DNA of 64,000 nucleotides from NCBI RefSeq assembly GCF_000732725.1, contig NZ_JPNB01000002.1, positions 1,488,001 to 1,552,000 of the forward strand, in the 5' to 3' direction. Positions 4,434 to 51,115 of this stretch are shown here, in pieces; position 1 is the stretch's first letter, and every line of letters starts with the position of its first letter. A program made the position numbers and the translations under genes. This DNA comes from Kineothrix alysoides (GTDB taxonomy: Bacteria; Bacillota; Clostridia; Lachnospirales; Lachnospiraceae). The notes beneath the pieces were generated by a model. That model was not told the origin of the DNA. It saw only the letters and a program-made list of their open reading frames with translations, and did not search any database.

Positions 4434-7400
4434 ATGAAAAGCGTGTGTAAAAGATTAATTAGTTATTTGCTGGCATCTGTAATGATACTGTCCATGCTGC
4501 CGTCATTGCCTGCCAAAGCGGCTGAAAAGGGTGCCAATCTGGTGCCGACCATAGAGTCGGACGGACAAGTTATCTTTTATTATCAGGGGGATGGAACCGA
4601 GGAGGAAGTGTATGTCAAGGGTTCCTGGGATACTTCCTGGGGACAGTATTTTTACATGAACAAGGCGGAAAACGATTTCTGGAGTGTGACCTCCACGGGA
4701 TTGGATGCCGGAAAAAACTATGAATACGGAATTATGGTAAAGAAAACCGGGGATGCAGAAGCAGGATGGATAAACCAGCCCAACCAATCGGCATCCGGCG
4801 CTAATCCCCAGATTATCAGGAATCCCAAAACAAATGCAAATGGAACGGTTACGTTCTATTATTATCCTTCTTCTGGTGAAGCGGCGGGAGATATAAAGGT
4901 TACCTATACGGATAGCGAAGAACAAAGTGAAGAAGTAGGATTTGCCCAGGATGCCAATTATCCTACCGTATACTCCGCGACCACAGGAGTGCTGAACGGC
5001 ACGTATACCTATGAGCTGAGCGTCGGCGGTAACCCGATGCCGTACTACAACAGCAATACAGATACGTTTACCGTCAGCGGCGCCGCACCGGAAGCTGATC
5101 CGTCGAAGCAGAGTCCGGTAATAGAAGATGGCGGCAGCGTGACCTTTTACTATTATGATCCTACGGCAAGCGAAGTGAAGCTGGCCGGTAATATGACTGA
5201 TTGGGCGGCCGGAGCCCGCCCTTTGACTTATGACGGCGCCACCGGATATTGGAGCGTTACGCTGACACAACAGCAAAATGGTATTTATGAATATAAATTC
5301 ATCATAAATGGAAGCTCCTGGCAGAAGGATCCTCTGAATATGGGGACAGGGGAGAATAGTACCTATACGTTAACGAATGGATATATACCGGATGTGGTAA
5401 GTCCAGTAGTAAACGGAAAAACTGTCACCTTTTATTACAAGGGAGCATCTACCGATACGGTAGTTCTGGCCGGCGATATGAATGGCTGGAAACCGGACGG
5501 GGAAGATGCCGCATATATGACGGATTATGACGCCTCTTCCGGCCTTTGGTCCATGACCCTTCGCCTGGAACCGGGGACGTACTCGTATAAATATGTGGTA
5601 AATGGCAATTGGATAAACGATCCGGCGAATACAGCCCCTCAGGCTGGTGGTAACAGCACATTTACCGTGGCGCAGCTGCCGGACGGCTATTACACATACA
5701 ATATTTACTACTATGATACCAGGCATACCGGACAAAAGGATGCTGCTCTCTGGATATGGGAAGACGGCGGAGTGCCGGGAGCGGAATATCACTTTACCGG
5801 GCAGGAAACAATAGAAGGACATACATGGCTTAAGGCTGAGTTAGATTTGAACTTTAATAACCTGAGCGTTATTCCCAAGAAATATTCGCCCGGAGCAGTA
5901 GACTGGGGATGGCAGGACGTAACGAGAGGGCATGATTTTACCGGTGTGGATACTGCGAGAAATTTGTATCTGATATTCGGCGATTCCACCGCTTATACGG
6001 AATGTCCTGATCTTTCCGCCATATCGGAGGAAGACCGTTACGTAGTGGTAGAATATACGAGGCCGGGCGGGGATTATGACAACTGGAATATTTATACATG
6101 GAACAGCGGCTATGGCTCAGAGGTAACCGTACCCTTTGAAAAGATAGCGGATGGCAAGGCTGTCGCCAAAGTGCCGGTAACGAAATCGGTAGCGGAACTG
6201 AACTTCTGTGTGCGCTACAGTGAGACGGACAATCCCTGGGCCGAGAAGGACGGCGGGGATCATTCCGTTAAGATTCCTGCGGACCAGACGATAGCAAAGG
6301 CCAGATTTGTACAGAACAAGGGCATAACGGAGATACTGCCATATAATATCGGCTATGAGATCGACGCGGCGGCCGGCAGTGTGAGTTTCTACTACCGCGA
6401 CAATGCTCTTTTCCGTGATGGAAGACAGGAAGAGCTTGCAGGCAAAGTAAAAGTATGCATTGATGGTGTGCCGGGGGAGGAGAGCGCAGATACTATTTAT
6501 AATATGACCTACGATACGAAGAATGAGCGGTATGTCTATGTGCACAACAGCCTGACAGAAGGAGAACATACTTATTGCTATTTCATAGATAATGAGCGGA
6601 AGCTGGATGCTTACAATACGAAGACAGATGCTTCCGGGCTTATGTCCGTATATGAATACCATTCTTTTGCGGCGCAGGTAGGGACGAGCCTGGCGTACGC
6701 GAGTATGGACTACAATGACAACAATTTGCTGATCATAGAGCTGACCGATGACCAGGGACAGCCAATTGAGGGCATGGAGGCAACAGAGATAACGGCAGAC
6801 TTAAGCAGTCTGGGCGGTACAAAGACCTCGGTAGACCCTGAGCTAATGGCACTATCCTTTGGCGTGCGCTATAGCAGGGCGGCCGGCAGGGCGGCTATTC
6901 CGGTAACGGTTAAAGATCAGTACGGAAATATATATACCGGAAGTGCGGAGGTGGAAATAAAAGCCCGGGAAAAGGGAAATGATTTCGACTGGGACGAGGC
7001 GGTAATCTATTTTGCGGTAACGGACCGTTTCTTTGACGGCAATGCGGCGAATAACGATGCTGACGGCATCGGAGATTATAACACCGGCGTGAACGGAAGC
7101 TCCAGCTATCATGGCGGAGACTTCGCAGGACTTACACAGAAGCTCGATTATTTGAAGGAGCTCGGAGTCAATACGGTATGGATCACTCCTATCGTGGAAA
7201 ATTATATGGCAGACGGTCTGACGACGGATGTGGCGGGCGTCAAGTCCTATGGATATCACGGATATTGGGCGAGTAACTTCGAAAAGCTGAATCCTCATCT
7301 GGGCAGCGAAGCCGATCTGCGTACTTTAGTGGATGAACTGCATCGCAGAGGAATGAAGCTGATGGTGGATGTAGTGCTGAACCACACCGGTTACAATACC

Positions 7401-11235: not shown

Positions 11236-12177
11236 TTGGATACCTATTTGGGATTGGACTTTGGCGGAACAAAGCTGCTGATCGGAGAACTGGACGAGGA
11301 AGGCCATGTTCTGCGCAGCAAGCGGTACGATACAAGATTAAGCGAGCAAAAGGAGGTTGCGGAGGCTATTCTGAACGATCTAACGGATTATATAAAAGCG
11401 ATGGGCATTCAGGGCAATCTGAAGGCGGCAGGACTTGGTATTGTCGGAATCGTGGACAATAAAAGAGGAGAATGGGTTTCCATGAACCACGAGATTACCG
11501 GTCCTCCGGTTCCCATTGCGGCGATGATAGCCGATAAGCTTGGAGTGCCCTGTGCGGTGGATAACGATGTACGCAGCGCCACTGCGGCAGAGCTTATACT
11601 AGGACAAGGCAGAACGTCGTCGGATTTCATCTATTTGAACGTGGGTACAGGATTGGCGGCGGGCTTTGTATGCGGTGGAAGGATTATGCGCGGAGCTAAC
11701 TGCAACGCGGGAGAAATCGGACATATGGTGGTGGATTTAAGCAGAAAAGAGTCTTGTGTGTGCGGCAGGGAAGGCTGTGTGGAAAATGTAGTTTCCGGCA
11801 TCGGTTTTACGAGACAGATTACATCATACGGGTTGCCGGAGCTTCTGAATGCCGGAAAAAGAGCGGATGTGGTGCGCTTGTTTCAAGGTGCGGACGCAGG
11901 GCTGAAAGAATGTGTTGAAATTACGGAATACGCGGCGGAAGCACTGGCTTGTGTTATAATGAATCTCGTGAGGGCCAGCGACCCGGATACGGTTATTTTG
12001 GGCGGAGGCGTTATCAGCGACGGATGGCTGATGGAGAAGGTGAATCGATATCTTTCTCCCGAAACGATGCGGGGCGTGACTGGCGGCGTAATATTTTCCA
12101 GTTTCGACCTGCGGTATGCGGGACTGATCGGAGCAGCTACCCTGGGGATGCTGCTCATAAAAGGAGGCAATCGATGA
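11236..12177 (+). CDS. ROK-family sugar kinase
   Basis: 313-residue cytoplasmic ATP-dependent hexose kinase. TTG at 11236 is chosen because AGGAGGAA lies 5 bases upstream and the protein then starts at the phosphate-binding motif (TYLGLDFGGTKLLIG). Further ROK features are VDNDVRSA (sugar binding), NVGTGLAAG, the GEIGHMVVD catalytic region and the zinc motif CVCGREGCVE. The presence of catalytic residues and the lack of an N-terminal helix-turn-helix argue for a kinase, not a repressor. It overlaps the GH9 gene by ATGA and is followed by a NagB-like gene, so glucosamine or a related amino sugar is the inferred substrate; glucose is the alternative. Confidence 0.93.
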   Translation: MDTYLGLDFGGTKLLIGELDEEGHVLRSKRYDTRLSEQKEVAEAILNDLTDYIKAMGIQGNLKAAGLGIVGIVDNKRGEWVSMNHEITGPPVPIAAMIADKLGVPCAVDNDVRSATAAELILGQGRTSSDFIYLNVGTGLAAGFVCGGRIMRGANCNAGEIGHMVVDLSRKESCVCGREGCVENVVSGIGFTRQITSYGLPELLNAGKRADVVRLFQGADAGLKECVEITEYAAEALACVIMNLVRASDPDTVILGGGVISDGWLMEKVNRYLSPETMRGVTGGVIFSSFDLRYAGLIGAATLGMLLIKGGNR

Positions 12178-14561
12178 GAGAAGAATTCCGAAGGGAAGTA
12201 GAGGGCAGTTTATATATTCATTCTATGCTGCCTCTTCATAGAGAAAGGTCATTGGAAGCAGAATTTAGGAATAAGAAGGTGCTTGACCGAAAGGAAGTAT
12301 GGGCGGCGGGAGGATGGACAAGCACTCCGGCTGCAGGAGAAAAGGGAAGCCTGCGGGTCGTGGCAAAGGAAGGGGAAATCTGCGTGAGCATTACATCTGC
12401 TCTTCGCAGCGACCGTTGGCCTGAGGGAGCGCCGGCAGATGGTGATTACAGCAATTTCGGAACGGCCGAGGTACATTTTCCGTTTCGGGGAGAGAATCTG
12501 ACCGGTTACAGCAGACTGCATTTCTGGGTTTATCCGCAGGTGCAGGGAGCGGAGGTTGTCCATCTGAATGTGGGAATTAGAAATGACGGGGAGCAGAAGA
12601 TACCGGACCGCTACATGAGGGAAGGTTTTACAACGTTCGATTTGAATAACATGGAATGGAATGAATGCTTTTGGGAATTTCCTTCTCTTCCCAGAGATAA
12701 GGTGACGGAGCTAAAGTTCTATGTTTTACTGTGCGGACAGGATGTGGCTATGGGAGAAGACCTTACCTACTATTATAAGGACATTGCCTTTGAGCAGGTG
12801 GAGAATCCTGAAACGGAGCTTGGCTGGGAGTGCGCGAAGGACAGCATCGTATTATCCAGTGCCGGTTATTTTGCGGCAGGAGAAAAAAGCGCTGTGGCTA
12901 ACCTGACGGCGGATTTTTTCGAGGTAATTGATGAGAAGACAGAAGAGAGCGTATATCACGGGACGGTGAGGCCGGTAGAAAATAAAAACGGCCGTTTCCA
13001 GGTACTTGATTTTTCTGAGGTGAGCGGCGAAGGTACTTATTATCTTCAGGCAGGTGAAGTACGAAGCCAGAGCTTTGATATTACGGACAATTTGATGGAA
13101 GAGAATATGTGGCGGGTGCTGAATTTCCTATACGGACAGCGGTGTGGAATGCCTATTCCGGGAAAGCATGGAACCTGCCATCAGGATATTGCGGCGAGGC
13201 ATGAGGGGCTTACCATGTCCTTTTCAGGCGGCTGGCACGACGCAGGGGACGTTTCCCAGCAGAGTGCACAGACCGGAGAGGTGGTACATGCCCTTTTGGA
13301 AGCGGCAGCAGGCTATCGGGAGAAAAACCCCCTTTTATATAAAAGAATTGTGGAGGAAGCGCGTTGGGGACTGGATTTTATTTTAAGGACCCGGTTTAAG
13401 GACGGTTACCGTGCCACCAGCGCAGGGGCTACGAGATGGACCAATAATTTGGCTGGCGATATGGATGATGTGGAGGCCAGAGTGTACAATCATGCCTATG
13501 AAAATTTCTTGTTCGCAGCCATTGAAGCCTATGCATATCTACAGCTTAAGGAAGAGGACGGCCCTTTGGCTCTTGGCAGCCTGGAGGCAGCGAAGGAGGA
13601 CTTCGCCTTTGCGCAGAGGCACTTTGAAGATTTTGGCGTAGAAGCGGTGCAGATGTTTGAGCACACTTATAATTCGGGACTTTCTCAATATTATGCGGTC
13701 ATCGTATGGGCGGCTTCTTATTTATATGAAGCGACGGGCGAAGAGGAATATGCAAATGCGGCACAAAGCTGGTGTGATAAGCTGCTGCAATGTCAGGAAA
13801 ACGGAGCTGCAGGGCTTCCCTTTGGCGGTTTCTTCTATCGGGAGGAAGACCACCGGACGATTGTACATTTCAATCATCAATCCAGAGAGCAGCAGTTCAT
13901 GCAGGCGCTGACGGAAATCTGCCGTTCACAGCCAAGGTCGACGAAGCGGCCCTTGTGGGAAGATGCCATGAAGAGTTATGGAAGGTATATAAAGGCTATC
14001 GCAGGAAATACCGCTCCTTACGGAATGCTCCCTGCAGGAATTCATAAAGCGGATGAATACGAGGATGAAAAAGTATTCCCATATCTCCATTTGATGTGCT
14101 CCTATGAGCAGGAAAGAGAGAACTGCAAAGAACAGCTTTTTAACGCAGCGCCGGTGGCGGAGGGTTATGTACTGCGCAATTTCCCTGTTTGGTTTTCCTT
14201 CAGGGGAAATACGGCGGTAATGCTGGCGGAGGGCAAGGCGGCATCTTTGCTGGGCCGTTACTTCGGCGATGAGGAGCTTCTTCAGATAGGAAGGGAGCAG
14301 CTTTATTGGATATTTGGCAAGAATCCGTTCGGACAGTCCCTCATGTATGGGGCAGGCAGCCGGTATCCGGCTCAGTATGCAGTTTTTCCGGGCGCAAGCG
14401 TGGGTGAGCTTCCGGTTGGAATCGAGACCTTTGCCAATGGGGATATACCCTATTGGCCTCAGGGCAACAACGCCACGTACCGCGAGGTGTGGACATCATC
14501 GGCAGGTCGGTGGCTCTGGCTGGCGGCAGATTATACAGCGGAAGATAGGGAGGATTTTTAA
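12174..14561 (+). CDS. Cytoplasmic GH9 glycoside hydrolase, candidate exo-glucosaminidase
   Basis: 795-residue hydrolase. ATG at 12174 overlaps the ROK stop and follows AAGGAGG. Residues 1-270 are a carbohydrate-binding/beta domain and a CelD_N-like Ig domain (GTYYLQAGEVRSQSFDI). The GH9 (alpha/alpha)6 barrel follows, with the diagnostic GGWHDAGD carrying nucleophilic-water Asp residues (about 352-359). Near the C-terminus are GKNPFGQS and a conserved Glu in TYREVW (about 771), the general acid position. There is no signal peptide, so it acts on imported oligosaccharides. GH9 includes endoglucanases, beta-glucosidases and exo-beta-glucosaminidases; the flanking kinase and NagB-like gene favour glucosaminidase. 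Substrate is inference. Confidence 0.88.
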   Translation: MREEFRREVEGSLYIHSMLPLHRERSLEAEFRNKKVLDRKEVWAAGGWTSTPAAGEKGSLRVVAKEGEICVSITSALRSDRWPEGAPADGDYSNFGTAEVHFPFRGENLTGYSRLHFWVYPQVQGAEVVHLNVGIRNDGEQKIPDRYMREGFTTFDLNNMEWNECFWEFPSLPRDKVTELKFYVLLCGQDVAMGEDLTYYYKDIAFEQVENPETELGWECAKDSIVLSSAGYFAAGEKSAVANLTADFFEVIDEKTEESVYHGTVRPVENKNGRFQVLDFSEVSGEGTYYLQAGEVRSQSFDITDNLMEENMWRVLNFLYGQRCGMPIPGKHGTCHQDIAARHEGLTMSFSGGWHDAGDVSQQSAQTGEVVHALLEAAAGYREKNPLLYKRIVEEARWGLDFILRTRFKDGYRATSAGATRWTNNLAGDMDDVEARVYNHAYENFLFAAIEAYAYLQLKEEDGPLALGSLEAAKEDFAFAQRHFEDFGVEAVQMFEHTYNSGLSQYYAVIVWAASYLYEATGEEEYANAAQSWCDKLLQCQENGAAGLPFGGFFYREEDHRTIVHFNHQSREQQFMQALTEICRSQPRSTKRPLWEDAMKSYGRYIKAIAGNTAPYGMLPAGIHKADEYEDEKVFPYLHLMCSYEQERENCKEQLFNAAPVAEGYVLRNFPVWFSFRGNTAVMLAEGKAASLLGRYFGDEELLQIGREQLYWIFGKNPFGQSLMYGAGSRYPAQYAVFPGASVGELPVGIETFANGDIPYWPQGNNATYREVWTSSAGRWLWLAADYTAEDREDF

Positions 14562-48172: not shown

Positions 48173-48796
48173 TTAAGGGCTTTTTCGGCTTTCGTTTTTA
48201 TTGTTTATATGCTTTTTGACCATTGTACGGAACTGACTGACGGTGACTCCAAGTGCATCACTGGCGGTTCGAAGGGTGTATTCTTTGCTTTCCCACTTCT
48301 CGTATATCGGATAGAATTCTTCAGGGATGGGAGAGGGGAAACGGCCCAGATGCCTTCCCTTTGCCTTGGCTATGGCAATGCCCTCTGCTTGCCGTTGCTT
48401 GATATTCTCCCGTTCGGCCTGTGCGACATAGGACAAAAGCTGTAAGACGATATCGGAGATTAGGGTACCGATTAAGTCTTTGTTAGTGCGGGTATCGAGA
48501 ATGGGCATGTCCAAGATGACGATATCTGCTTTTTTTACTTTAACGATAACGCGCCATTCCTCTTGTATATCACGATAACTTCTGCCGAGGCGGTCAATGC
48601 TCTTTACGACGAGAACGTCGCCTTCCTTCAATCTTTTCTTTATTTTCAGATATTCAGGTCTGTTAAAATCTTTGCCCGATAATTTATCGCAATAAATGTT
48701 CTGTTCGATAATCCCCCATTTCAGCAATTCCACTTTTTGCCGATCGATGTTTTGATCGGCGGTAGATACCCGCATATACCCATAAAAGTTCTTCAT
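48173..48796 (-). CDS. Small serine recombinase (resolvase/invertase)
   Basis: 207 residues, full length. Catalytic Ser is in YGYMRVSTADQNIDRQ; KSIDRLGRSYRDI carries the conserved Asp/Arg pair; AQAERENIKQRQAEGIAIAKAKG is the E-helix leading to the C-terminal helix-turn-helix (RTASDALGVTVSQFRTMV). This is the size and layout of Hin/Gin/Pin-type invertases and Tn3 resolvases. No transposase lies beside it. The start follows GGAGGACTAAAAA. Immediately upstream is a 121-bp segment between perfect inverted repeats shaped like serine-recombinase crossover sites. Confidence 0.95.
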   Translation of the reverse strand: MKNFYGYMRVSTADQNIDRQKVELLKWGIIEQNIYCDKLSGKDFNRPEYLKIKKRLKEGDVLVVKSIDRLGRSYRDIQEEWRVIVKVKKADIVILDMPILDTRTNKDLIGTLISDIVLQLLSYVAQAERENIKQRQAEGIAIAKAKGRHLGRFPSPIPEEFYPIYEKWESKEYTLRTASDALGVTVSQFRTMVKKHINNKNESRKSP

Positions 48797-48863
48797 TTTT
48801 TAGTCCTCCTATTATACGTAGTATGCCAGAAAGGCTAAACTTAATCCATATGTTTCAAGGCAC

Positions 48864-48920
48864 TGAAAAAAGAGACAAGTTGCTATAAAGGTGTACCTTT
48901 TTAGCAACTTGTTTCTTTTG
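48864..48920. terminator. Long hairpin, bidirectional terminator-like, containing the left recombination-like site
   Basis: A near-perfect palindrome: GAGACAAGTTGCTA-TAAAGGT, then GT, then ACCTTTT-TAGCAACTTGTTTC, more than 20 pairs with one T-T mismatch and one G-U. A runs lie to the left and TTTCTTTT to the right, so it could stop transcription both ways. Half of it lies inside the putative invertible segment. Confidence 0.7.
48886..48902 (+). repeat. Left 17-bp inverted repeat (candidate recombinase site)
   Basis: TAAAGGTGTACCTTTTT. The exact reverse complement is at 49024-49040. Each site is itself palindromic (AAAGGT / ACCTTT) around a central asymmetric GT dinucleotide, as in serine-invertase sites, which recombine through a 2-bp overlap. 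Confidence 0.75.
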
Positions 48921-49023
48921 AATATACAAACAATTATACTGACAATTGTATTACATTTTTTTGTAAAAAACAACAAAAAATGACAGTATAATAGTGTAAA
49001 TCAAATAGATAACAATGTACGTA
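48903..49023. promoter_or_regulatory. Putative invertible segment with outward -10 elements
   Basis: 121 AT-rich bases between the repeats. It contains TGACAGTATAAT pointing right (TATAAT 48987-48992) toward the chemoreceptor and the mirror image TGTCAGTATAAT pointing left (48938-48933) toward the recombinase. No clear -35 is present for either at normal spacing, so strength and sigma factor are uncertain. Confidence 0.5.
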
Positions 49024-49040
49024 AAAAAGGTACACCTTTA
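49024..49040 (-). repeat. Right 17-bp inverted repeat (candidate recombinase site)
   Basis: AAAAAGGTACACCTTTA, the exact reverse complement of 48886-48902. It ends 38 bases before the chemoreceptor start. Confidence 0.75.
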
Positions 49041-49078
49041 TGGCGATTTTTTCAAATAAATTAAGAAAGGAAAAAGTT

Positions 49079-50749
49079 ATGTTAAAGGTTACCAAAACAA
49101 AAGGATCAATAGGGCAGATATTTTATTCAAGATTTGCTGTAATTGTATTTATGGCCGGACTTCTCGTGCTGCTGATGGGAGGGAGTATTTTCTGTTTCGA
49201 CTATGTTTTTAGCAAGAGCGAAAAGATAAATGCGGAAAAATCCGATTTATTGAGTTATGAAATGGCCCATTATAAATGGTGGATAAATCTTAGTTCAGCC
49301 GTTTATTATAATACGGAATTTACGGGACAGAGGGATGAGACGAAATGTGATTTCGGTATATATTTATATGGGCCGGGTGTAAAAGGCAATCCGCAAATGA
49401 GCGAATTCTATGAGAAGGCAGAACCCTTGCATAGAGAAATCCATCAGCTTGCAGACGAAGTGCTCAGCGTGAACGGGACGGACAAGGCACAGGCGGAAGC
49501 TTTATTAAAGGATAGTGTAGAGGTGAAAATCCACGCCTTGGTAAGCCTTTTGGACGATACGATAGTACAGAAGCAGGAGCAGATCGATAATCAAAGAAGA
49601 ATGGTCATCGTGATGCTCGGCATCATATTCGTGGCTACTATCTTTGCCGTTTCCTTAACGGTGTGGTTTATCATAAAAACGTATAGATACGTGAAGACTA
49701 AGGTCATCGAGCCGATTGTAGATTTACAGCAAGAATGCGAGAAGCTGGCGGAAGGAAATCTAGGCTTAAGCTTTGAAGTGAATATGGATAACGAGATTGG
49801 AAGTCTTGGAAAATCTTTGGATTTTGCGGTAAAGGAAATTAAGAAATATATCGATGCTATCGCCTTTGGTATGAAAGAATTCTCCTCCGGCAATTTTACC
49901 TGTGTCTGTCCGGTGGAATTTATCGGCGATTTCGCAAATATCCAGCGTTCTATCGAGAGCTTTCAAGAAAAAATGAATGACACTCTGTATGAGATGAGCG
50001 TGGCAATAGAGCAGGTGAGTGCAGGTGCACAGGAGCTGTCTGCAGGAGCGCAGGACATCGCGCAGGGTGCGACGAATCAAGCGGGAAGCGTACAGGAACT
50101 GTCCGATGTTATTTCTAATATTACGGGTCAGATAAGCAATAATGCCGAGTACGCCCAGGGCGCCGATGAGTGGGGAGAACGGACAGGAGAGACCGTCGTT
50201 ACCAGCAAAGCACGGATGGAACAGCTGGTGGCGGCAATAAACGACATTGCCGCAGCATCGGAGGGCATTAAGAATATTATCGATACCATCGACGCCATAG
50301 CCTCCGAGACGAATTTGCTGGCGTTAAATGCGGCGATCGAATCTGCCCGTGCAGGAGCAGCCGGAAAAGGTTTTGCCGTAGTAGCCGATCAAATAAGGAA
50401 GCTGGCGCAGGAATCCGCAGATGCCGCAAAGAACACCACCGGGTTGATAGAGGAATCTCTGTCCCATATTGAAAAAGGAAAAGTACTAACAGGAACAACG
50501 AGTGAGGCATTTGAGGAAGTCGCTAAGAATGCCCAGACTGTTTTGGAAATGATAGACAAAATCGCACAGGAATCCAGAGCACAGGCTTTGGAAGCGGATA
50601 AAATCGCAAAGGGAATCGATCAGATTTCCGGCGTTGTCCAGACGAATGCATCGGTATCTGAGGAAAGTGCGGCGGCGAGTGAGGAGCTGAGTGCGCAAGC
50701 TATGGTCATGACGGATTTGATTAATCAGTTTAAGCTTAGCAAAAGGTGA
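49079..50749 (+). CDS. Methyl-accepting chemotaxis protein
   Basis: 556 residues. ATG 49079 after AAGGAAAAAGTT; an ATG at 49040 touches the inverted repeat and lacks a ribosome site. Two membrane helices (about 17-40 and 185-208) bracket a small extracellular domain of about 140 residues. HAMP follows, then the cytoplasmic coiled coil. Signalling tip: [20 protein letters not shown] and [18 protein letters not shown]. The C-terminus ([15 protein letters not shown]) has no receptor pentapeptide. Its upstream region is the putative invertible segment, so its expression may switch on and off. Confidence 0.96.
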
Positions 50750-50812: not shown

Positions 50813-51115
50813 TTAACCTGAAACCGAAGGGAGGTTATTCAAATTATTGTCTTCCTCCCCATCAGGCAGAGACTTCAAATATTCCGTATCCTTCCTGTGG
50901 GCGATTCCTACGCCTTTGATATCACCGTTCTTGGCAAGATTTACTCCCTCCTGCTTGGAAACTGTGGAACCGTCGGATAATTGGTAGCCGGTCACGCGTC
51001 CGCTGCTCTTTACGAGCCCTACAATTTTTTGGGCGTCGCTCTTCGCTTGGGGTATATCATCCAGAGTATTGATAGCGAGAGCTTCGCCGAGAGTAATTTT
51101 ATCCATATCTGTCAT
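50813..51115 (-). CDS. DUF3892-containing small protein
   Basis: 100 residues from ATG 51115 (AAGGTATGG upstream); the longer open frame overlaps the AraC gene and is not supported. The C-terminal half VTGYQLSDGSTVSKQEGVNLAKNGDIKGVG fits DUF3892, a small domain of unknown function. The N-terminal part is helical. It may be transcribed with the AraC regulator, 79 bases upstream. Function unknown. Confidence 0.75.
   Translation of the reverse strand: MTDMDKITLGEALAINTLDDIPQAKSDAQKIVGLVKSSGRVTGYQLSDGSTVSKQEGVNLAKNGDIKGVGIAHRKDTEYLKSLPDGEEDNNLNNLPSVSG

Follow-up and report, generated by a model that had tools for sequence, protein, structure and literature searches.

Organization of the locus

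We analyzed a 64,000-nucleotide stretch of the Kineothrix alysoides genome (contig NZ_JPNB01000002.1, positions 1,488,001 to 1,552,000; hereafter the window, with positions counted from its first letter), in which a small serine recombinase gene lies divergent from a chemoreceptor gene and the DNA between them carries a candidate invertible promoter segment. G000 denotes the genome of the window, other G numbers the genomes of relatives, and L numbers the loci in those relatives. The recombinase gene (48173..48796, minus strand, start codon at 48796) encodes a 207-aa protein of the resolvase/invertase type. As the earlier note on this DNA had stated, its open reading frame (ORF) was intact, and the product matched the Pfam family Resolvase (PF00239, E 3.3e-30), the Pfam match being confined to the catalytic domain. 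The nearest solved sequence was Sin (2r0q, E 2.8e-24). In an AlphaFold model, a C-terminal three-helix domain was formed by residues 161-169, 175-182 and 186-204, a block with a predicted local distance difference test score (pLDDT) of 83-92, in a whole model that was only fair (mean pLDDT 73.4, predicted template modeling score 0.48). Foldseek searches with this model gave gamma-delta/Tn3 resolvase and Sin, which are full-length resolvases, as top matches. R9, S11, D68, R69 and R72, which we take to be the catalytic residues, were invariant in the recombinase and four relatives (45-81% identity). With both a catalytic domain and a C-terminal DNA-binding domain, the protein belongs to the small serine recombinases; it falls outside the Mpi family, with 48.5 bits against the model NF009949, whose cut-off is 272.

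The putative switched gene (49079..50749, plus strand) encodes a 556-aa chemoreceptor with CZB zinc-binding, HAMP and MCPsignal domains (Pfam). Its ORF as listed begins at 49040, exactly where the right repeat described below ends, and would give 569 aa. The ATG at 49079, which has a ribosome-binding-site-like GAAAGGA, is the better start, so that the right repeat is probably part of the untranslated leader.

Between the two genes, TAAAGGTGTACCTTTTT occupies 48886-48902, and its exact reverse complement follows at 49024-49040 after 121 bp (48903-49023), the inner part of the putative invertible segment. The left crossover site (48886..48902, plus strand) contains the core AAAGGT-GT-ACCTTT (48887-48900) with the center GT at 48893-48894, and the right crossover site (49024..49040, minus strand) contains the core AAAGGT-AC-ACCTTT (49026-49039) with the center AC, or GT on the minus strand, at 49032-49033. 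Both the bracketing repeats and their build, a palindrome around an asymmetric GT, were thus as the earlier note had described, and the central dinucleotides stand in inverted orientation. Exchange at the centers would invert 137 bp (48895-49031). The 17-mer occurs at these two places only in the 4.68-Mb genome. The broader pattern WAAGGTNNACCTTW likewise occurs at two genome places, both at this locus, compared with six for a reversed control pattern. Because WAAGGTNNACCTTW is confined to these two sites in G000, the idea of a common operator, which would have spoken against a crossover function, was set aside. When the window was scanned for the 14-mer with at most one mismatch, four matches were found against 0.18 expected, the only two perfect ones being the crossover sites.

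Paired crossover sites in orthologous loci

In the genus, 13 of the 16 genomes searched gave some match. Two other species, G009 and G012, showed the same gene order as G000 (EamA, recombinase, chemoreceptor, DUF3892). Between G000 and G012, the recombinase was 90% identical (196 residues), EamA 75%, the chemoreceptor 68% and DUF3892 88%. In draws that included G000, orthologs were present in 7 of 392 genomes of the order, 2 of 398 of the phylum and 4 of 348 of the family; the class draw gave 2 of 391, none of them new. The genus of G249 gave 19 of 25, and two further families yielded one ortholog each (among 10 and 24 genomes), neither of them new. The E-value cut-offs (1e-70 or 1e-75) were of our own choosing. 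The phylum draw added only one ortholog (G588) and the class draw none, indicating that the recombinase family is sporadic. A profile search of genome contigs with a three-sequence alignment recovered only Desulforamulus aeronauticus, in which the locus and its intergenic region (L075) read the same as those of G588 (L092). Viral contigs held three relatives of 43-49% identity, and their loci lacked an exact AGGT-(2 or 3)-ACCT core; one of them (L076) had the near-core AAAGGT-AT-ACCATT upstream. When the intergenic DNA was searched against 98 relatives, nine matched at E ≤0.001; beyond G000 only G009 matched strongly (E 1.4e-115), and we attributed the remaining seven (E 4e-5 to 9.7e-4) to chance similarity of AT-rich DNA.

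These searches gave 28 orthologous loci in 27 genomes, with recombinases 71-100% identical. Five loci were cut short and held one core each, four at a contig end (G384, G1089, G1086 and G1088) and one at a run of Ns (the second G1092 copy). All 23 uncut loci carried, between recombinase and neighbor, exactly two AAAGGT-NN-ACCTTT-like cores (at most two mismatches, within 460 bases upstream of the recombinase gene), and the centers of the two were reverse-complementary, although in G009 this holds only if a central 1-bp insertion in the right core (AAAGGT-ACA-ACCTTT, L045; counted as two mismatches) is ignored, the left core being perfect. The center pair was GT/AC in 21 loci, AT/AT in G962 and TT/AA in G012, where both centers have changed jointly from GT/AC. 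The centers of G962 (L124/L093) are symmetric, so the overlap would not set site polarity there. Ns lie between the two cores in G317 and G1083, and a third core is present in G173, farther away inside a duplicated stretch.

As controls, we examined the 600 bases upstream of 18 further small serine recombinases from the genus (30-62% identical); such a pair was absent in every case. These controls were drawn from 33 non-orthologous matches, after exclusion of six without a locus and nine that were fragments or matches to larger proteins. One control had a single core with two mismatches, and two (G001 and G003; L069 and L070) had a single AAAGGT-AT-ACCTTT core. L069 and L070 also carry an inverted 13-mer, TCGCAAAAGGTAT, which holds a half-core, with the copies 106 bp apart. 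This repeat and the core perhaps form a res-type site that shares the same half-site.

Both orientations of the segment occur in relatives

Evidence for inversion came from assemblies, not from reads. Up to and including the left center, counted from the start of the recombinase gene, G1088 and G1095 were identical (86 of 86 bases); beyond this center, G1088 matched G1095 at 67 of 67 bases when the G1095 sequence was reversed, but at only 33 of 73 as is. G1089 and G1086 matched G1095 as is (66/67 and 45/45, respectively). The segment of G1077 matched that of G1095 at 110 of 128 bases when reversed compared with 74 of 141 as is, and four control pairs aligned as is. In G173, one scaffold runs through the segment, the right flank, a single N, the reversed segment (139/139) and the right flank again (156/156). 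Since this scaffold holds the segment in both orientations, both forms were probably present in the sequenced DNA. The right junction of G317 was reversed relative to G249, and its left junction, with 10 readable bases before an N, resembled the other orientation, a likeness that carries little weight by itself. The contigs of G384, G1089, G1086 and G1088 end 97-154 bp upstream of the recombinase gene, which fits assembly breaks at a mixed site. In G1092 (L111), two recombinase copies (6732-7337 and 11752-12357), with about 1,000 identical bases, flank a 4015-base N run; this duplication is possibly a scaffolding artefact at the switch.

Judging from these assemblies, both orientations of the segment exist among relatives, and genomes of different species differ in orientation, contrary to the single orientation that the earlier note had named as a refuting outcome. 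The claim of an invertible segment with 2-bp-overlap sites beside its own serine recombinase was supported by the reversed relatives, the two-orientation scaffold and the joint center change in G012. We regard it as highly probable, from comparison of sequences, that the locus is a self-contained invertible promoter cassette, as far as its inversion core is concerned. The switch appears to be real and is very probably functional.

A candidate half-terminator and a probable promoter within the segment

A near-perfect palindrome surrounds the left site (48868..48919, minus strand; 25+2+25 nt, arms 92% complementary), a feature absent from the description in the earlier note, and is a candidate intrinsic terminator towards the recombinase. 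Its 5' arm (48895-48919) lies inside the segment, whereas its 3' arm and a T-run (48868-48892) lie outside, on the recombinase side; inversion would thus detach the candidate terminator. The minus-strand RNA folded at -25.5 kcal/mol (z -6.4, 0/200 shuffles). Promoters and hairpins were then compared in 21 of the 23 loci (G317 and G1083 were dropped for their Ns), using 60 shuffles each for the hairpins. For this comparison, the segments of G1077 and G588 were reversed to place the half-hairpin on the recombinase side, and the others were used as found. A recombinase-side hairpin with z < -4 was present in 16 of the 21 loci and no longer reached this value after modeled inversion in 15 of the 16. 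G012 keeps the stem through a change of AAGTTGC/GCAACTT to AAATTGC/GCAATTT, and the T-run of the hairpin is poor in the g84 group. We put the chance that the half-hairpin acts as a terminator at about even.

TATAAT elements had been reported on both strands of the segment, and both are present, but probably only one belongs to a real promoter. The left-facing TATAAT (48933..48938, minus strand) faces the recombinase in this assembly and aligns with the conserved TATAAT of the relatives, making it the probable -10 element of the segment promoter; the family -10 column of the alignment holds this element in G000 and G009 and ATAAC-type bases in G012. The right-facing TATAAT (48987..48992, plus strand) is absent from G009 and G012, the best right-facing promoter of G000 had a z of 0.0, and this element is probably not a functional promoter. 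Among the 21 segments, 15 had a sigma-A-like promoter facing the recombinase with a score of at least 9.0; TTGAAA-17-TATAAT was found in seven, and TTGTAT-17-TATAAT was best or second best in six. Our first reading, that the present orientation is chemoreceptor ON, was dropped after this promoter comparison and is kept below as a rival. It seems somewhat likelier, on the aligned promoters, that the window assembly represents the chemoreceptor-OFF state, with the promoter towards the recombinase.

We propose the following model. The recombinase would bind the two short sites, cut at the central 2 bp and invert the ~137-bp segment, which would carry one outward promoter. With this promoter towards the neighbor, here the CZB chemoreceptor, the gene would be ON; with the promoter towards the recombinase, the chemoreceptor would be OFF. 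The segment would also take along one half of a hairpin terminator, at this locus as in most relatives. Only in the OFF state would the DNA beyond the recombinase-side site supply the other half, and the hairpin would then limit read-through into the recombinase gene. The sequences themselves show the anatomy, its conservation and the two orientations among relatives; that this recombinase carries out the inversion, that the G000 copy still inverts, the promoter polarity in G000 and the terminator function are inferences from them.

Several observations weigh against parts of this model. A terminator scan did not flag the left hairpin, and a promoter scan tool gave a single minus-strand match that was not above shuffles. 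The best left-facing score was 7.6 in G000, G009 and G012 (z 0.8-1.0), which is unconvincing alone; the best left-facing pair in G000, TTGTTT-17-TACAAT (z 0.9), is a different one, and the TATAAT at 48933-48938 lacks a good -35 element at 17 bp. Five of the 21 loci (G173, G257, G962, G1093 and G1094) had no strong recombinase-side hairpin, the hairpin of G041 persisted in both orientations, and G249 and G151 had a hairpin before the neighbor in the present state. In G173 and G041, a promoter of at least 9.0 faced the neighbor (the best promoter as found, with no hairpin to set the orientation), and in D. aeronauticus/G588 the neighbor-facing score was slightly higher (7.8 vs 6.7). The orientation of G1077 and G588 was set by the hairpin, which makes the hairpin side partly circular, and the shuffles for both promoter scores and hairpins preserved base content only. 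Furthermore, the assembly of G000 is known in one orientation only.

Alternative explanations

The polarity may be the opposite in this genus, which is the strongest of the alternatives although we consider it unlikely. The right-facing TATAAT would then drive the chemoreceptor at present (ON), and inversion would complete a right-hand hairpin that ends transcription (OFF), in the manner proposed for the cwpV switch discussed below. The right outer arm ACCTTTATGGCGATTTTTTC (49034..49053, plus strand) would, after inversion, pair with the half-hairpin of the segment, G-U pairs included, to form a hairpin with a T-run ahead of the chemoreceptor. In the modeled inverted state, this plus-strand hairpin appeared in all three locus-carrying species of the genus, G000, G009 and G012 (z -5.5, -5.3 and -3.6; -15.7, -16.7 and -11.5 kcal/mol, respectively); it speaks against our assignment, as does the weakness of the left-facing promoter in G000, and it is the reason for retaining this rival. 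On the other side, the right-facing -10 element is not conserved in G009 or G012, and it is the left-facing TATAAT that lines up with the promoter of the family.

Less probable still is a switch that functions in relatives but has become locked in G000, with the chemoreceptor constitutively in one state. G000, G009 and G012 all share one orientation, and the 1-bp insertion in the right core of G009 may have locked the switch of that species. Both sites of G000, however, are perfect, and its recombinase is intact and well conserved, which favors a copy that can still invert.

It is very improbable that the sites are paired operators through which the recombinase, or another dimeric regulator, loops or represses divergent promoters without cutting DNA. 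Palindromic sites in a divergent intergenic region and the single orientation known for most relatives would suit such operators, but reversed segments exist, with the order changing at the cores, and an operator would not need the reverse-complementary centers found in 23 of 23 loci. Least probable of all is that the recombinase is a resolvase left behind by a decayed mobile element, with a res site symmetric by chance: the family resembles Sin and gamma-delta resolvases, and the relatives of 39-41% identity in G001 and G003 carry one core plus an inverted half-core amid ORFs that presumably resemble a mobile element, but the recombinase is more conserved than EamA and the chemoreceptor, and two inverted sites are kept in distant hosts, mostly beside a signaling gene.

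Neighboring genes and possible horizontal spread of the cassette

A flipping promoter in the orthologous loci would act on several kinds of genes. Pfam analysis of nine proteins identified chemoreceptors in G1091, G257, G962 and D. aeronauticus and an EAL protein in G173. In G1077 (L118:1242-4322), the neighbor is a GGDEF protein, and two DNA adenine methyltransferases of the D12 class come after it. A 185-aa protein of G249 matched no Pfam family. Judged by ORF sequence alone, the other g84 loci are for the most part similar to G1077 or G1091, a chemoreceptor lies ahead of the GGDEF gene in G1095, and G041, the most distant (71%), has an ABC-transporter-like gene. The position of the switch before GGDEF and D12 methyltransferase genes in G1077 and similar g84 loci indicates that DNA methylation may be phase-variable there.

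In a tree of 26 loci (all 28 except G151 and the second copy in G1092) with four outgroup rows, D. aeronauticus (G588), G173 and G962 fell inside the g84 chemoreceptor clade with support of 99/98, their own grouping having 85/89. This placement suggests horizontal transfer of the switch cassette. It is possible, though we advance it only tentatively, that a plug-in switch consisting of the recombinase and a ~130-bp promoter/half-terminator segment moves horizontally and makes genes for chemoreceptors, cyclic di-GMP (c-di-GMP) enzymes and DNA methyltransferases phase-variable in distant Firmicutes, its detachable half-terminator letting the orientation feed back on expression of the recombinase.

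On the far side of the chemoreceptor, the window also holds a DUF3892 gene (50816-51115, minus strand), an adjacency kept in G009 and G012.

Comparison with known systems

The separate ideas combined here have been published: inversions near chemotaxis genes, promoter inversion of c-di-GMP genes, and terminators made or detached by inversion. In Clostridia, Sekulovic et al. (2018, PMC5903667) described inversions near signaling and chemotaxis genes, including an inversion signature close to a chemoreceptor of Anaerotignum propionicum. The suggestion of the earlier note that a chemoreceptor switch would be a new case was therefore too strong. The locus resembles those sites in having a short invertible segment near chemoreceptor or signaling genes, whereas the portions of that text consulted name neither a dedicated serine recombinase for those sites nor this site sequence, a half-terminator or horizontal spread. 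In the cwpV switch of Clostridioides difficile, the proposal is that inversion creates or disrupts an intrinsic terminator where the segment joins its flank; the tyrosine recombinase RecV is encoded elsewhere, the 21-bp imperfect repeats are 195 bp apart and the promoter lies outside the segment (PMC2784873, consulted in part). At the present locus, modeled hairpins form in an orientation-dependent manner, but the conserved promoter appears to lie inside the segment. The C. difficile pdcB and pdcC genes encode c-di-GMP enzymes made phase-variable by promoter inversion; by the description in a review (PMC11868660), they differ from the present case in being phosphodiesterase genes of that species. 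In the portions consulted of the literature searched (including PMC2784873, PMC5903667, PMC11892184 and PMC11868660, without preprints and most subscription journals), we found no description of this recombinase family, its site, the combination or a serine-recombinase chemoreceptor switch.

The analysis links a recombinase family and a recognizable 14-bp site to clostridial inversions beside signaling genes, whose enzymes are unassigned in the consulted text of PMC5903667. It implies that sensing, through chemotaxis, c-di-GMP and possibly DNA methylation, may be bet-hedged in these bacteria. The 14-bp site offers a search handle for further switches, and the cassette would be a compact promoter-plus-terminator flip element.

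Mpi of Bacteroides, a master invertase, is a serine recombinase with short inverted repeats around promoters. It acts on at least thirteen regions (PMC5903667, as cited above). The recombinase described here differs in having one site pair in the G000 genome and in its score below the NF009949 cut-off. The Hin and Gin invertases act at palindromic sites with a 2-bp asymmetric center and invert larger segments. They use a Fis-bound enhancer (PMC3798978, consulted in part). The present sites share the 2-bp asymmetric center within a palindrome, and the segment between them is smaller. The fim switch of Escherichia coli combines an invertible promoter with a "detachable" Rho-dependent fimE terminator, as described in PMC2784873. 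The present cassette is similar in its predicted orientation-dependent termination of the recombinase transcript, whereas fim differs in its recombinases (FimB and FimE), its Rho-dependent terminator and its fimbrial target.

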